Virus record (IMG/VR): IMGVR_UViG_3300025012_000028
Location: 62,001-126,000 of that record
DNA length: 64,000 bases
Reading direction: 5' to 3' (one strand)
Source: a virus
The notes below the pieces were generated by a model, which was not told the origin of the DNA, made no database searches, and saw only the letters and a list, made by a program, of their open reading frames with translations. The position numbers and the translations under genes are program-made. Shown here piece after piece: positions 3,285-53,504 of this stretch; positions within the stretch are counted from its first letter, which is position 1; the number at the start of each line of letters is the position of its first letter.

Positions 3285-4895
3285 TTAAAAGAAGTAAGTA
3301 TCGTTGATGAAGCTGGAACCGGTGAAGTCACAGAGAACTTTTCTGTAATACTTCTCTGCGCCCCAAATGCTACCCATGATGGCGTCTCTCGACTGGAAAC
3401 CGATTACGTTGGCAAAGGTGTTAGGATCGGTTACTTTGATCATCTGAAGCGGGATGTATGGGCAGTACATGATACCAGAGTCGGTATTCGCGCTTCCTTT
3501 GTAGCCCACGATGAAGTAATCACTCCAAGAGAAGGTATCGAGATAGACACTAAATCTTCCATCCAGAGTACCAACTTTAGCAACACCAAACTGAGGCTCG
3601 ACATTACCGGGAACCTGAGAGTACATAAAGTTACTCAGAGTCTCAAGAGCGGTTACGACATTCAGAGAAGCCAGAATGAAGTTAGCGGGACCACGGCGAG
3701 TTGAGAGAGCAACCCTGTTTGCTTCGTTCACGATACGGGTGTACAGTGAGCGGAATTTCTCAAGTTCCCAACGACCATCAGCGGTCTGTGCAGTCTGACC
3801 AGTAAGATCAGAAGGTTTGCCCATGATCTGACCCGGAGTTCCGTAGAACCAAGAACCAGCGTTGGTTGCTACACCGTGGATGGTATCAACGATATCCCTA
3901 TCCAGTTCAGCAGAGATTTCGTACTCAAGAATGTTAATCAGTTCTGCTTCAGCATTCAGGCCGAACTGTGCTTTAAGATCCTGTGCCAGTTCCATTGAGT
4001 ATTCTGCTTTGTACTTACGAGTTTCAGCGGTGACACTGAATTTCTCAACAGAAACTTTCATAGACTTCATTGCGGAACGCTGCATATATTCGGCAGATGC
4101 AGTTGTCTGATAAGGAGCGTAAGCAGTTCCGAACAGCAGGTTGTAACCAGCTTCGTTGTTGAACAGACCACGGATGTTGGTATCCGTTCCAAGTTCTACA
4201 CCAGCGCCACCGAAGGAAACGACTGCACCAGTAGCGAGTGCGGTTTTAGCAGCAATCGAATCTTTACCGGCTTTAAGCTGAATCAGCATTTTGGTTACGT
4301 TCTGACCAGCATCATACTGTGCGAGAACCACGTTACCCCAATCGGCAGCAGCGCCAGAAGCAGCACCATCAGCATCAATGGTAAAGTTGTAAGTGTTGGT
4401 CGCATCGGTGATTGCAACGGCAGCAGCAGGAATCTGACCACTCACAACAACACCGATGGACTGGAAGGACTGATCAGGAAGTTGGGTGCGTGGATTCAGT
4501 TTGTTGGTGCTCAGATTACCGGGATAATCAGCGGTGTTGTAATTCTGAAGGTTGTTCTTAGCAGCGCCCTTAACACCAGTTTCGTACCCATTGCGGATTG
4601 CAAACACAAACCCGTTAGGAGAATTCATCGGCTGAACACCAACGAGGTCATTAGAAACAAGGTTGGGGAAAATCCTACGAACAGCAGGAACCAGAATCGG
4701 GGTATACTGAGTGAAGTCGTTCAGGGAAGTCGAACCATCTTCCATCAGGTAATTTTGCTGATTCTCAAGCAGACGTGCCAGCGGCTCTCTCATGTCATGG
4801 CGGATAGGTTTGATTTTACCTGCGACATTAATTTCAGGATTTTTATCTGCATCCAGAATCGGTTTCCACTCTTCGACTAAAAGTTTTTCGGACAT
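3285..4895 (-). CDS. 23: Major capsid protein, T4 gp23 family
   Basis: This 536-aa protein (T4 gp23 is 521) forms the hexameric shell of the head. Family hallmarks are visible: VGVQPMNSPNGFVFAIRNGY near residue 85, ETRKYKAEYSMELAQDLKAQ in the middle, GPANFILASLNVV, and a C-terminal YKGSANTDSGIMYCPYIPL. The N-terminus (about 1-50) is the delta region. It offers cleavage sites for the prohead protease: LLE at residues 42-44 or LME at 50-52 fit (L/I)xE. An Ala/Gly-rich stretch around residues 150-230 resembles the gp23 insertion domain. It follows gp22 and gp21 as in T4 and has a perfect late box upstream. Confidence 0.95.
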   Translation of the reverse strand: MSEKLLVEEWKPILDADKNPEINVAGKIKPIRHDMREPLARLLENQQNYLMEDGSTSLNDFTQYTPILVPAVRRIFPNLVSNDLVGVQPMNSPNGFVFAIRNGYETGVKGAAKNNLQNYNTADYPGNLSTNKLNPRTQLPDQSFQSIGVVVSGQIPAAAVAITDATNTYNFTIDADGAASGAAADWGNVVLAQYDAGQNVTKMLIQLKAGKDSIAAKTALATGAVVSFGGAGVELGTDTNIRGLFNNEAGYNLLFGTAYAPYQTTASAEYMQRSAMKSMKVSVEKFSVTAETRKYKAEYSMELAQDLKAQFGLNAEAELINILEYEISAELDRDIVDTIHGVATNAGSWFYGTPGQIMGKPSDLTGQTAQTADGRWELEKFRSLYTRIVNEANRVALSTRRGPANFILASLNVVTALETLSNFMYSQVPGNVEPQFGVAKVGTLDGRFSVYLDTFSWSDYFIVGYKGSANTDSGIMYCPYIPLQMIKVTDPNTFANVIGFQSRDAIMGSIWGAEKYYRKVLCDFTGSSFINDTYFF

Positions 4896-7380: not shown

Positions 7381-7387
7381 AAAATCC

Positions 7388-47549: not shown

Positions 47550-47582
47550 AAAACCCTCTAAGATTTCTCTTAGAGGGGTTTT
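47550..47582 (+). terminator. Terminator of early cassette
   Basis: Stem AAAACCC-TCTAAGA / TCTTAGA-GGGGTTTT with a bulged G and TTTC loop. Confidence 0.85.
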
Positions 47583-47601
47583 CTATATTAAAAATCCTTT
47601 T

Positions 47602-47609
47602 TATAAATA
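47602..47609 (+). promoter_or_regulatory. Late-type box on plus strand (leader A)
   Basis: TATAAATA on the plus strand upstream of the GIY-YIG gene at 47705; the same box occurs at 52331-52338 before the other endonuclease. Transcripts would begin near the structured leader. Confidence 0.55.
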
Positions 47610-47691
47610 AAAGAAACGGATAAGTTCAGTTGTTGACGCAACCGAACAACAGGAAGGGGAAACCCGCTGTCTCCGTTCACTTCTATTTATA
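47602..47691 (+). ncRNA. Structured leader A of homing endonuclease gene
   Basis: Predicted three-way junction. Closing stem AACGGA (47615-47620) with TCCGTT (47672-47677). Arm 1: GTTC-A-GTTG with CAAC-C-GAAC (47624-47647). Arm 2: ACAG-GAA-GGG, GAAA tetraloop, CCC-G-CTGT (47649-47670). The outer TATAAATA and TATTTATA (47684-47691) are also complementary. A near-identical element precedes the unrelated endonuclease at 52434; arm 1 differs but still pairs there. Function unknown, possibly translational control or mobility. Confidence 0.6.
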
Positions 47692-47704
47692 TAAGGGGAA
47701 TCTG

Positions 47705-48802
47705 ATGAACAAACCAGAAGTTGTTGAAGTCAAAGCCTACCATATTGTCTACCTCACCACAAATCCTTTTAACAATAAAATCTATGTTGGTAAACATTCA
47801 ACCAACAATCTTAACGATGGGTATAAAGGTTCTGGTAAATATTTAAATAAAGCTTTTAAGAAATATGGAAAGAAACATTTTAAATTCCAAATTCTTCATT
47901 ACTGTCTTACTTTGATGGATGCTTATGAAGTTGAGGGGTGGATTGTAGATCAAGCTTTTATTGATAGACCAGATACTTACAATGTGGTCGTTGGTGGAAG
48001 AATGACCCCAGATTGGACAGGAAAGAAACGATCTGAAGAATGTATAGCTAAACATAAAATGTATAGAGCAACAGAAGAAACAAAGAAATTAATCAGTATT
48101 GCAAATACTGGAAAAATTAAAACTCCAGAACAACTTGAATTAATGAGAACATTATCGACTGGAAGGAAAGATTCGGAAGAGACAAAACAGAAAAAGAGGT
48201 TGGCAAACTTAGGAAGGAAACATACCGAAGAAGCATTAAGAAAAATGAGAGGAAGGAAATTAACAAAAGAACACATTAATAAATTAACCGGAAGAAAACG
48301 TACAGAAGAGACATTATTAAAATTAAAATGTAGAGTTGTAAAACCAGAATCAATTTTACAAGGAGTTCAGACTAGAAGTAATTATTTCCCAAAACTTTTA
48401 TTAATTTCTCCTACTGGTGAAACTCATATAATACAATATTCCCTTCAAACTTTCTGTAGAACGCACAATCTTTCTTATACGACCATTTTTACAAATTTAA
48501 ATAAAGGACCAATTAAGTTTTATTACAATAGTAAAAGTGAAAAATATATCAATTCAATTGGGTGGGAACTAAGAGACGATTCATTTTCACAATCAAATAT
48601 AAAATTACCAAAAGAATATTTGATCATATCCCCAGATGGAAAAGAACATAAATGTAATTATATTTCTTCATTTTGTCGGCAACATAATCTATCCAACCAT
48701 ATTTTATCGAGACATATAGACAAGGGAATTATATCATGTAGAAACGGGAAATCTAAAGAGTATATGAACAATAAAGGTTGGGAGATACGAAGTATAAAAT
48801 AA
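47705..48802 (+). CDS. GIY-YIG homing endonuclease with NUMOD repeats
   Basis: The ATG at 47705 follows AAGGGGAATCTG; an upstream in-frame TTG lies in the structured leader and is rejected. The 365-aa product has an N-terminal GIY-YIG nuclease (YHIVYLTTNPFNNKIYVGKH, then GYKGSGKYLNKAFKKYGKKH; terminal TYNVVVGG). Residues 100-215 hold several NUMOD3-type repeats (GKKRSEECIAKHK; GRKHTEEALRKMRGRKLT). The C-terminus has two NUMOD1-like units with the C-R-x-H-N-L core (FCRTHNLSYTTIF, FCRQHNLSNHIL). It lies alone behind a leader shared with the gene at 52434. Confidence 0.9.
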   Translation: MNKPEVVEVKAYHIVYLTTNPFNNKIYVGKHSTNNLNDGYKGSGKYLNKAFKKYGKKHFKFQILHYCLTLMDAYEVEGWIVDQAFIDRPDTYNVVVGGRMTPDWTGKKRSEECIAKHKMYRATEETKKLISIANTGKIKTPEQLELMRTLSTGRKDSEETKQKKRLANLGRKHTEEALRKMRGRKLTKEHINKLTGRKRTEETLLKLKCRVVKPESILQGVQTRSNYFPKLLLISPTGETHIIQYSLQTFCRTHNLSYTTIFTNLNKGPIKFYYNSKSEKYINSIGWELRDDSFSQSNIKLPKEYLIISPDGKEHKCNYISSFCRQHNLSNHILSRHIDKGIISCRNGKSKEYMNNKGWEIRSIK

Positions 48803-50170: not shown

Positions 50171-52303
50171 TTATGACAAGTAGCAACTAAAATTAAAAGT
50201 TTCCGTTCCTTCGATCTTTGAGAAATAAAGTATAATTACACTATTCATGATCGTTCTTCCATCCGTGGTTATGATATCCAAATCCACATCACCATTATCG
50301 GAAGGGAGAACATAATTCTCATTGGCTAGAGATAAATCATATTTATTTAGAATGTTTTTAATTTCATCCAACGGCAACTGAGGAAGTGGTTGAGCTATGA
50401 TTTGTTTCAGTTCCTCGTTGGCATTGACTCTATCAAATGAAAGAAGTCTAGCAGTTTTCTTTTCGGGACGCTCGACCAGATTGTTTGAATCCAATTCGGG
50501 TTCTGGTTCCTCTTCTGGAATTAATTCTTCGGGTTCCACATCAACAGGTTCTTCTAATGATTCATCTTCCATTGGTGGTTCTTCACTGAAAGCACCTTCT
50601 AACATTATATTAAAAACATTAACATTTGATATTTCTTTACTATTTTCAATAAGATTTATATTTTTCCAAGCTTTGAAATTATCCCATTCTGGAAGAATAC
50701 CAGCACATATCATAGCAAGTTTATTTCCATATGCTCTTGCTTGATCTGAATAATCAAATGCAGTATTGGAAGTATATATAATTAATTGTGAATCTTTCCA
50801 CACTTTACAATCATACATCCCCCCGTCAACTTTAAAAACAGATACTTTAAATCCTTTGGGACATTTTACTTTTATATCTTGTTTATGGTCTTCTGTCTCA
50901 CATAAAGCACCTTCCAAAAGTTTCCCAAATAAATTCTTACTCTCAAATTTAAATTTGAGTTGTTCTGATTCATTATCTTTCATGTAGGTCAAAGAATCAG
51001 GAAGAGGATGAACAAATTTAAAATCGTGTGGGAAAGATTCTAAAAAGAATTCAATGTATGCAAACAAATCTGAATTATCTTCTTTAAAAGCTTCTAAATC
51101 TTCTTTAGTCCAATTGGAAAAAGCAGTATGATAGTCTTCGGTGTGTTGAAAAGATTGTTCATCTGGTTCTGAATCCGATTCCATCTCAATCCAATACATC
51201 CATTTGTCCTGCAATTGATCATAAAAATCATACACCGATTCCTTGGCTTCTTTTTCATGCCAAGCTTTATCTTCATCTTCAGTCGGCCACCAAGGATCTA
51301 AAAACATATCAACAAAACTTGGCATTCTATCGTCGGCCCAATTATCGTGGTGGTGGTATTTATGATTACGGGTGAAACTATATTTAAAAATATCAAACCC
51401 TTCTTTAATCACGCGATCCCAATGATTGATTTGCCATTCTTCTTCAATATTATAATCCTCATATTCATCCTCATCTCTGGGACGATTCAGATAATCATCT
51501 TCATTCTCCCAATTCTCATCCAACATTCTATGTGCTGCTGCTTCTTCATCAAAGATAAACTTTAGCGGAGTTCTTTCTTTTATCTTTCCATAATTTTTGG
51601 TGAAGTTAGGCAAATCTTCGATGATACTATATGGTTTGTTGTCGCTGCGATCATTATAATCCCTACTTTCTTGGATTTCGCCATTCTTAATATAAATCTG
51701 GTATTTTTCGAATGGATCATCCACATTGATGAACTGAAGAAGATCACCACTTCTGCTATATGCTCTCCAATGTGAATCGGTGTTTAGATATGCAGTACAC
51801 CAGTTTGCTTGCGGATTGGTCTTATATTGAGCACCTTTAATATTCCCTTCTTGTGTTAGGGTTTCAATACAAATCCATTCATCGGTAACATCAATGACTG
51901 TGATATCATCTGGCATATTGAAGATATCTTTTTCTTTTTTCTTCTTCTGCCTGTTGGATTCAGTTTCTTCTAATGTATCAACATAAGCAAAGAACTCTCT
52001 CCAAGTTTTGAATGAAGTGAAAGAGACACCTTTAGATAGGCGATGGAATTTTTCAAGATCATCTTTGATAGTTTCATGTTCAGCGACATGATGAAGGTCT
52101 AATTCTTTATCTCTCTTTATGAGATTGATAATACCTTCAAGATATTTACCACGCTGACCATTCTTTGAGGTAGGGTCTTGTGCTGCTAGATCATTGAATA
52201 CATCGAGAGGGATAAGTTTATGATCGACATATGAATCATAAAATTTTTGTAATGAAATCTCGATTAAAAATTGTTCTTCTAATATTTTGTGTAAAATTGA
52301 CAT
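50171..52303 (-). CDS. 710-aa predicted packaged polyprotein
   Basis: N-terminal tag MSILHKILEEQ (LEE/Q at residues 8-11). Two internal segments copy the tag: NLFGKLLEGALCE (457-469) and NVFNIMLEGAFSE (562-574), compared with NIFDSILKEAVEE at the start of the 49095 gene. They divide the protein into three modules of about 450, 105 and 140 residues. Module 1 contains NWCTAYL and SRSGDLLQFIN (168-193), then a long acidic Trp-rich region. Module 3 has a Glu/Pro linker. Late box 24 nt upstream. Prohead-protease processing is inferred. Confidence 0.58.
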   Translation of the reverse strand: MSILHKILEEQFLIEISLQKFYDSYVDHKLIPLDVFNDLAAQDPTSKNGQRGKYLEGIINLIKRDKELDLHHVAEHETIKDDLEKFHRLSKGVSFTSFKTWREFFAYVDTLEETESNRQKKKKEKDIFNMPDDITVIDVTDEWICIETLTQEGNIKGAQYKTNPQANWCTAYLNTDSHWRAYSRSGDLLQFINVDDPFEKYQIYIKNGEIQESRDYNDRSDNKPYSIIEDLPNFTKNYGKIKERTPLKFIFDEEAAAHRMLDENWENEDDYLNRPRDEDEYEDYNIEEEWQINHWDRVIKEGFDIFKYSFTRNHKYHHHDNWADDRMPSFVDMFLDPWWPTEDEDKAWHEKEAKESVYDFYDQLQDKWMYWIEMESDSEPDEQSFQHTEDYHTAFSNWTKEDLEAFKEDNSDLFAYIEFFLESFPHDFKFVHPLPDSLTYMKDNESEQLKFKFESKNLFGKLLEGALCETEDHKQDIKVKCPKGFKVSVFKVDGGMYDCKVWKDSQLIIYTSNTAFDYSDQARAYGNKLAMICAGILPEWDNFKAWKNINLIENSKEISNVNVFNIMLEGAFSEEPPMEDESLEEPVDVEPEELIPEEEPEPELDSNNLVERPEKKTARLLSFDRVNANEELKQIIAQPLPQLPLDEIKNILNKYDLSLANENYVLPSDNGDVDLDIITTDGRTIMNSVIILYFSKIEGTETFNFSCYLS

Positions 52304-52326: not shown

Positions 52327-52334
52327 TATTTATA
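52327..52334 (-). promoter_or_regulatory. Late promoter box for 52303 operon
   Basis: TATAAATA on the minus strand, 24 nt upstream of the 710-aa gene. It overlaps the plus-strand copy of the same box at 52331-52338. Confidence 0.6.
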
Positions 52335-52421
52335 AATAAAAGAAACGGATAAGTTCATTGCCTCGGAAACAATGAACAACAGGAAGGGGAAACCCGCTGT
52401 CTCCGTTCACTTCTATTTATA
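52331..52421 (+). ncRNA. Structured leader B of homing endonuclease gene
   Basis: Same element as at 47602-47691. Closing stem AACGGA (52344-52349) with TCCGTT (52402-52407). Arm 1 is GTTCATTG/CAATGAAC with a different loop, and arm 2 ACAG-GAA-GGG-GAAA-CCC-G-CTGT is identical. Flanks TATAAATA and TATTTATA pair too. Only arm 1 changes between copies, with pairing kept, which argues for RNA structure. Confidence 0.6.
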
Positions 52422-52433
52422 CAAGGGGAAGTC

Positions 52434-53504
52434 ATGTCAAAACAAAAACTCACAAATGAAATTGTAGATTTTAGATTGAAAAATAGGAATATAATTAGGC
52501 TTGATGATTATATTAATGCCAGAACTAAAATTAGATTCCAATGTACCATTGACGGTTATATTTGGAATGCAAAATCTGATAGCATATTTCAGGGAAACGG
52601 ATGCCCCGAATGTGCGGGTCTAGCCAAGCTAAACAACAAAATTATAGATGATCGATTAATTAAAAGAAATATTCTTAGAAAGGGAGAATATATAAATAAC
52701 AAAACCATAATTCCATTTCAATGTTTGATTGATGATTATATATGGGATGCTAGTCCAGATTACATTCTTAATGGTAATGGGCGTTGTCCAAAGTGTTCGG
52801 GTAATATTCCAGTAACTAATGATTCTTTGGATGTAAAATTAGAAGGAAGAAATATAAAAAGACTTGGAGATGTAAATGGTCTGACGACTAAAATTTCATT
52901 TCAGTGTTTGATTGATAATCACATTTGGGATACATTACCATCCATTATTTTAGCAGGACATGGATGTTTGGTGTGTTCGGGCAAAAAACCAATTTCAAAC
53001 GAACTTATAGATTTGAGATTAGAAGGAAGAAATATAAGAAGACTTGATGATGTTATTAATGACATCACAAAAATACAGTTTCAATGTACCACAAAAACTT
53101 GTAATCATATTTGGTTCACTACCCCTAATAAAATTACAAGTGGTGCTGGATGCCCGATGTGTAAGAAGAAAAATGAGAAAAGAATTTTAGAATATCTTAT
53201 CGAAAAATATGAGCATGAAAATATAGAACCACAATTTTATATTTTTGCTAATGATAGAAAATATTATATCGATTTTGAAATTAATGGAATTTTAATTGAG
53301 TATCATGGCAAACAGCATTACGAGCCAGTGCGCTTTGGTGGACGTAGTGAAGAGAAAACAAAAGAAGCATTCATCAAACAAGTTAAACGCGACTACGAAG
53401 TTAGAGAATATTGTAGAGAGCACAATATAAGACTGATTGAAATCCCATATTGGCTCTCCCACAAAGAACAATATAAGTTATTGGAAGAATTATTTATAAT
53501 TTAA
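52434..53504 (+). CDS. Homing endonuclease, EDxHD (Vsr-like) type
   Basis: ATG at 52434 after AAGGGGAAGTC. The 356-aa protein has four N-terminal zinc repeats of about 55 residues with CxxC cores (CPECAG, CPKCSG, CLVCSG, CPMCKK) and 'F(Q)CxxDxHxW' elements. The C-terminal nuclease follows: YYIDFEINGILIEYHGKQHY, then VKRDYEVREYCREHNIRLIE. This is the Vsr-like PD-(D/E)xK fold of the EDxHD homing endonucleases. It is a solitary mobile gene. Confidence 0.85.
   Translation: MSKQKLTNEIVDFRLKNRNIIRLDDYINARTKIRFQCTIDGYIWNAKSDSIFQGNGCPECAGLAKLNNKIIDDRLIKRNILRKGEYINNKTIIPFQCLIDDYIWDASPDYILNGNGRCPKCSGNIPVTNDSLDVKLEGRNIKRLGDVNGLTTKISFQCLIDNHIWDTLPSIILAGHGCLVCSGKKPISNELIDLRLEGRNIRRLDDVINDITKIQFQCTTKTCNHIWFTTPNKITSGAGCPMCKKKNEKRILEYLIEKYEHENIEPQFYIFANDRKYYIDFEINGILIEYHGKQHYEPVRFGGRSEEKTKEAFIKQVKRDYEVREYCREHNIRLIEIPYWLSHKEQYKLLEELFII

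Follow-up and report, generated by a model that had tools for sequence, protein, structure and literature searches.

A covarying three-way-junction RNA element with a loop matched to the ribosome-binding site of adjacent phage homing endonuclease genes

Two endonuclease leaders with a common junction element

The window analyzed here (64,000 nucleotides) comprises bases 62001-126000 of a 214,553-base IMG/VR virus record, referred to as G000. It contains a family B DNA polymerase of the T4 type, ~35% identical to the polymerases of named phages, and two homing endonuclease genes of unrelated families, each preceded by a structured leader. The motif TATAAATA, which by comparison with T4 we take to be the late-promoter motif, precedes many genes of the minus strand, as a rule at about 10-50 nt 5' of the Shine-Dalgarno (SD) sequence. 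The features of the two leaders are listed below in window coordinates, with the kind of evidence in brackets.

47550-47583, minus strand: terminator-like hairpin to the left of copy c3, usable on the minus strand (sequence)
47602-47609, plus strand: late-promoter motif TATAAATA for the GIY-YIG mRNA (same motif before most late genes of the minus strand)
47610-47678, minus strand: predicted antisense (R-strand) RNA body of c3 with anti-RBS loop (sequence and minus-strand fold)
47615-47677, no strand assigned: three-way-junction element, copy c3, with P1 at 47615-47620/47672-47677, arm 1 at 47624-47647 and arm 2 at 47649-47670 (fold, model R2 match, covariation)
47654-47661, plus strand: arm-2 loop of c3, AAGGGGAA, a copy of the GIY-YIG ribosome-binding site (RBS) (sequence match)
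47684-47691, minus strand: inverted late-promoter motif of c3, TATAAATA on the minus strand, with a predicted start of the anti-RBS RNA at ~47678, leftward (motif)
47693-47700, plus strand: RBS AAGGGGAA of the GIY-YIG gene, the predicted target (sequence)
47705-48802, plus strand: GIY-YIG homing endonuclease, NUMOD3, phrog_314 (domain/PHROG match)
52327-52334, minus strand: opposite-strand TATAAATA for the neighbouring minus-strand gene (50171-52303), overlapping the EDxHD promoter motif
52331-52338, plus strand: late-promoter motif TATAAATA for the EDxHD gene (motif)
52344-52407, no strand assigned: three-way-junction element, copy c4, with P1 at 52344-52349/52402-52407, arm 1 at 52353-52377 and arm 2 at 52379-52400 (fold, model R2 match)
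52384-52391, plus strand: arm-2 loop of c4, AAGGGGAA, RBS copy (sequence match)
52414-52421, minus strand: inverted late-promoter motif of c4, for the predicted antisense RNA (motif)
52423-52430, plus strand: RBS AAGGGGAA of the EDxHD gene (sequence)
52434-53504, plus strand: EDxHD-type homing endonuclease, DUF4379, CapR, phrog_559 (domain/PHROG match)

Both leaders (c3, 47602-47691; c4, 52331-52421) follow the order P1 AACGGA/TCCGTT, joining UAA, arm 1, A, arm 2 and C. An earlier, sequence-only reading had reported these coordinates and sequences correctly and had described the leaders as nearly identical, which agrees with a 26-nt block of arm 2 that occurs exactly twice in the window and in none of 100 shuffles. 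The three-way-junction fold proposed at that time was recovered in both leaders (z = -3.1 and -2.7), with an arm 1 that varies and yet pairs in each, and mirror-image folds of c3 and c4 also form on the opposite strand. The 'GAAA tetraloop', however, is not a conserved tetraloop: the GAAA belongs to AAGGGGAA, a copy of the RBS located ~40 nt upstream of the RBS itself (47654-47661 = 47693-47700 in c3; 52384-52391 = 52423-52430 in c4), and the arm-2 loop sequence differs in other copies, each again matching its own RBS. Likewise, the flanking TATAAATA and TATTTATA are present as described, but they are more than the arms of a stem, being two late-promoter motifs face to face.

Of the two overlapping late-promoter motifs at 52327-52338 (TATTTATAAATA), one belongs to the EDxHD gene and the other to gene 50171-52303 on the opposite strand. 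An open frame starting with TTG (47630-47704) crosses the c3 leader in frame with the GIY-YIG gene and is absent from c4; comparison by eye showed that an upstream open frame across the leader is not conserved among the copies.

An RNA family in front of unrelated endonuclease genes

Copies c1 (12886, minus strand) and c5 (157589, plus strand) were found via other endonuclease genes in G000, and c2 (60819, minus strand), which precedes an HNH gene, with a model built from the two window leaders. Model R2, which describes the element core alone with promoters and RBS left out, detects five copies in G000, seven in G001 (204 kb) and 12 in G002 (IMGVR_UViG_3300002895_000002; 213 kb) with nearly no background; it matches c3 at 47616-47676 (E=3e-12), c3 itself being part of the R2 training set. 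Further copies are present in other viral contigs, and ~60 were inspected in all; the contigs are metagenomic, the patterns that gave the first sets of copies included promoters, and some copies are near-duplicates. Near-identical cassettes precede unrelated genes in two cases (c3/c4, and 64393/50937 in G002). The two outcomes named as refuting the sequence-only reading, a lack of further copies or copies with no arm-1 pairing, were thus not observed, as many copies were found and arm 1 pairs in them.

Pattern scans of IMG/VR yielded additional true copies mixed with chance matches. The exact arm-2 motif had no match in an IMG/VR scan from which G000 itself was possibly left out, and the three matches of the pattern ACGGATAAG..AACAACAGGAAG were all chance occurrences within coding genes. 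With R2, no clear copy was detected in T4, Aeh1, RB16, PVA8, Pam2 or pf16; a weak match in Aeromonas phage 25 (E=0.36) was not counted, the part of the locus that was read containing no such element. BLASTN of three leaders against named phages returned chance matches only, including one of 19 nt in Menderavirus tRNA clusters, and a pattern for the R-strand (defined below) gave only chance matches, as judged by R2, in 84,980 bacterial and archaeal species. In Rfam, no match in the window exceeded the curated threshold, and nothing credible was obtained at E<=10.

Among 17 distinct sequences, all 17 pairs of the model show changes on both sides with pairing kept. The covariation score was 0.84 compared with 0.24 after shuffling, and 88.5% of the paired cells can pair, versus 57% in shuffled alignments and 33-47% with slid partners. 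With helices that covary and a model that finds homologues, as expected of a new family, the element is, on comparative grounds, a large and previously uncatalogued RNA family. In arm 2, the position that precedes UGUC in most copies holds a conserved wobble (A-C in 20 copies, G-U in six, Watson-Crick in two), and this non-Watson-Crick pair suggests a required wobble. Elsewhere, G-U and A-C pairs are equally frequent (24 versus 24) and thus strand-neutral, so that the fold alone picks neither strand and the G-U asymmetry was dropped as a strand indicator. The folding energy is slightly better on the sense strand, being lower in 13 of 17 cases.

The genes behind the element encode GIY-YIG, LEM-3-type GIY-YIG, HNH and EDxHD-type endonucleases and, once, a TnpB. 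In this last case (L059, IMGVR_UViG_3300001592_000525, 4188-4279, minus strand), the element precedes a TnpB gene (OrfB_IS605, Cas12f1-like_TNB) and its loop GGAAGATT matches the RBS; here, a freestanding TnpB seems to have acquired a homing-gene leader. Exceptions among the genes scanned are L053, with a zinc-finger-like short ORF without PHROG match, and L149, with a 316-aa protein without family. The divergent copy L149 4684-4751, and L244 579-1529, are associated with this 316-aa protein, which has no Pfam or PHROG match. Conversely, three GIY-YIG genes in G000 lack the element (7387, plus strand; 105334, minus strand; 144138, plus strand), and the one at 7387 has TATAAATA immediately 5' of its SD. 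Several of the endonuclease genes behind the 12 copies in G002 are broken or short, which indicates that cassettes outlive genes and that part of the family may be relics.

Loop and ribosome-binding site in two orientations

We refer to the strand reading 5' AGGACAG-arm-arm-CUUAC 3' as the R-strand; in the window, this is the minus strand. In class A, to which both window copies belong, the element opposes the gene and the R-strand is antisense; in class B, the element runs in the same direction as the gene and the endonuclease mRNA has the R-strand as its leader. Class B started from two matches that seemingly had no gene and had an endonuclease gene on the other strand.

In class A, the RBS of each copy's own gene recurs at the top of arm 2, as AAGGGGAA in c3 and c4, AGGAGATT in c2, GAGGCAAAT in L047, GGAGTAAG in L068, GAGGTGAAA in G002_6983 and GGATTACA in L254. 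The longest stretch shared by loop and RBS averaged 7.73 nt for the own gene versus 4.66 nt for permuted genes (30 copies; 0/2000 permutations), and 7.59 versus 4.59 nt for the 22 dissimilar copies that remained after removal of look-alikes (0/5000); these permutation tests count copies as independent, although some share ancestry. The same tests gave no own-gene signal for arm 1, the coding start or the upstream flank, and the idea that arm 1 of class A provides another targeting loop was accordingly rejected, no signal being present against either the RBS or the coding start. Complementarity between the sense loop and the RBS was negligible in this class (3.9 versus 3.6), while the duplex of the R-strand arm with the own RBS has a computed energy of -15.9 kcal/mol versus -10.5 kcal/mol for cross pairs (0/10000). 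In L149, where no SD is present, the loop copies the start-codon stretch GAATGACAG; the loop therefore matches the start site rather than the SD motif as such. In four of the G002 copies (181900, 102674, 30361 and 101157), the RBS itself appears to lie inside a small arm-2-like hairpin (e.g., CGGTAAGGAGAAACCG).

In class B the relation is reversed. The loop of the second arm is complementary to the own RBS, with a mean match of 6.71 compared with 4.55 for permuted pairs (0/10000; 21 copies with a usable start), the longest match being 12 nt in G001_161320, with 6-7 nt in others. Controls on 12 copies showed neither a same-sense match nor a first-arm match. The copy L309_12824 scored only 3 owing to a misassigned start (the expected ATG reads ATA), and by eye it pairs with the apparent RBS via one G-U. 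Loop and RBS are thus directly repeated where the element faces the gene, and the repeat is inverted where the two are codirectional. This switch with gene orientation is what pairing by the R-strand predicts, and the complementarity of the R-strand to the RBS in both classes is our main argument for the R-strand as the active RNA. The active strand is therefore likely the one opposite to that considered in the sequence-only reading, which had overlooked the opposite strand.

The promoter motifs also differ between the classes. Of 23 class A copies in G000-G002, 22 have an inverted ATAAATA core that separates the element from the RBS, most of these copies having been found with the promoter-free model, whereas in no class B copy read does a promoter motif occur between element and gene. 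In the first class B set, ATAAATA is present upstream on the R-strand in 8/12 copies, and 4/12 have no clear TATAAATA. The first base varies independently in the forward and inverted motifs and no wobble variants were seen, so that two promoters fit better than one RNA stem. Judged from the motif and its spacing of 5-6 nt, the antisense RNA would likely start with a G that lies at the base of P1, and the late mRNA presumably also starts near this point, if T4 spacing applies. The 3' flank of the antisense RNA is only moderately U-rich (61% versus 48%).

A candidate anti-RBS RNA and its alternatives

We consider it likely that the element is a mobile anti-RBS RNA module that holds translation of the homing endonuclease low, class A copies through an antisense RNA and class B copies through a cis-acting leader. 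The R-strand would be transcribed into a three-way-junction RNA of ~70 nt, in which the junction would stabilize the small RNA and present the anti-RBS loop; pairing of this loop with the RBS of the adjacent endonuclease gene would then block the RBS. In class A, the R-strand would start at the inverted late promoter TATAAATA just 5' of the RBS and act antisense on the endonuclease mRNA; as the sense arm-2 loop directly repeats the RBS, the loop of the antisense RNA would pair with that site. In class B, where the R-strand forms the mRNA leader of the endonuclease gene, the pairing with the RBS would take place in cis. The sequence itself shows the fold and its covariation, both promoter motifs and, in either orientation, the match of loop and RBS; production of the two RNAs, their pairing in vivo and the resulting repression of translation are what we infer. 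Since the antisense RNA of class A is complementary to the leader over its entire length, pairing with the leader could outcompete the shorter RBS match.

Among the closest known arrangements is the par locus of pAD1 (RNA I/RNA II, Fst), whose logic class A shares: convergent RNAs cross direct repeats, and their pairing takes place at the start site (PMC7472228). This locus and related type I toxin-antitoxin loci resemble the element in having convergent promoters and direct repeats, from which a small antisense RNA able to pair with the message at its start site arises (PMC7472228). At the motif level, TATAAATA and inverted TATAAATA converge in the 22 of 23 class A copies from the three phages, and the direct repeats with antisense/start-site complementarity are present. 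As to the shared bidirectional terminator of par(pAD1), a terminator-like hairpin lies left of c3 and the antisense flank is only moderately U-rich, which may or may not amount to a counterpart. In contrast to par(pAD1), however, a homing endonuclease takes the place of the toxin peptide as target (the downstream genes encode endonucleases, and no Fst/Ldr-type peptide was found), the anti-RBS sequence is located in a loop of a three-way-junction RNA, and the element is driven by late promoters and also exists in an inverted, cis-acting form; no sequence relation between the two is apparent. The HEARO/omega RNA of IscB is likewise a structured RNA beside a nuclease gene and guides the nuclease, whereas the genes behind the element mostly encode protein-only nucleases, its loop matches the own RBS, and no Rfam match was obtained.

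Leaders of T4-type homing endonuclease genes (I-TevI, I-TevII, I-TevIII, segB, Aeh1 mobE and seg43 of Aeromonas phage 25) combine late promoters with RNA structure that limits translation (PMC2988022), as the element is predicted to do, and the sequence-only reading had drawn an analogy with such hairpins. This analogy is only loosely right. With the exception of seg43, these leaders hide the RBS within a local hairpin, whereas in c3 and c4 the mRNA-strand folds started from TATAAATA leave the RBS unpaired and the link is a loop of a separate junction that copies it. A T4-type early/late control, in which TATAAATA in read-through RNA would pair with TATTTATA, the stem would extend to the RBS and lower translation, late transcripts would lack the arm and the junction would merely join the arms, is unlikely. 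It is consistent with the outer stem that forms in c3 and c4, with the position of TATAAATA at the 5' end, from which a late mRNA with the predicted start would lack the 5' arm, and with the late promoters known within the RBS hairpins of T4 I-TevI, segB and Aeh1 mobE (PMC2988022). However, the RBS itself is outside the stem, the outer pair does not covary, the first bases of the promoters varying independently, and TATTTAT showed no G-U variants; moreover, class B lacks a downstream arm and the RBS copy is left unexplained. A search for an RBS hidden by upstream sequence in read-through RNA gave no general signal.

The RBS copy on the class A mRNA strand might instead act as a decoy, with the sense arm-2 loop mimicking the start site and titrating ribosomes, a repressor protein of the phage or a nuclease that cuts at GGAG, for instance RegB. 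We regard this as highly unlikely: the matched stretch is specific to each copy and runs past the SD, which neither a single protein nor 16S rRNA would require, the mRNA loop of class B is the complement and not a copy, and L149 has no SD. Improbable to a similar degree, and if anything more so, is a DNA-level signal, that is, a hairpin or cruciform that serves cassette mobility, with an RBS repeat arising from recombination. The near-identical cassettes before unrelated genes of one genome and the strand-neutral wobble pairs would fit such a signal, but it predicts neither the constant RBS identity of the repeat nor its flip to an inverted repeat with gene orientation, and neither end repeats nor target duplications were seen. 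A ribozyme, whether self-cleaving or splicing, favored by the compact junction and the conserved joining segments (UAA, UGUC), is scarcely credible given the few such segments, the freely variable arms and the absence of an Rfam match at a useful score; the 'ribozyme-like' label of the sequence-only reading found no support, with neither an Rfam ribozyme match nor a conserved catalytic core. Its broader proposal, a portable regulatory cassette that is larger than the T4-type hairpins, common to unrelated endonuclease families and marked by compensatory changes, is supported by our results.

The wider version of the anti-RBS module, a portable RNA that moves between unrelated selfish nucleases in either orientation, with its loop retuned to each start site and several specific brakes operating side by side in one phage genome, has in our view about even chances of being correct. 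Within the searches made here and the open-access literature, the element would be the first RNA family common to homing endonuclease families that are unrelated, a TnpB gene among its partners. It would also be a natural case of a regulator that takes on a new specificity when one loop changes to fit another start site. The rule that the repeat flips between direct and inverted would allow a clean search for further RNAs of this kind, and the question of how phages tame selfish nucleases would become directly testable.
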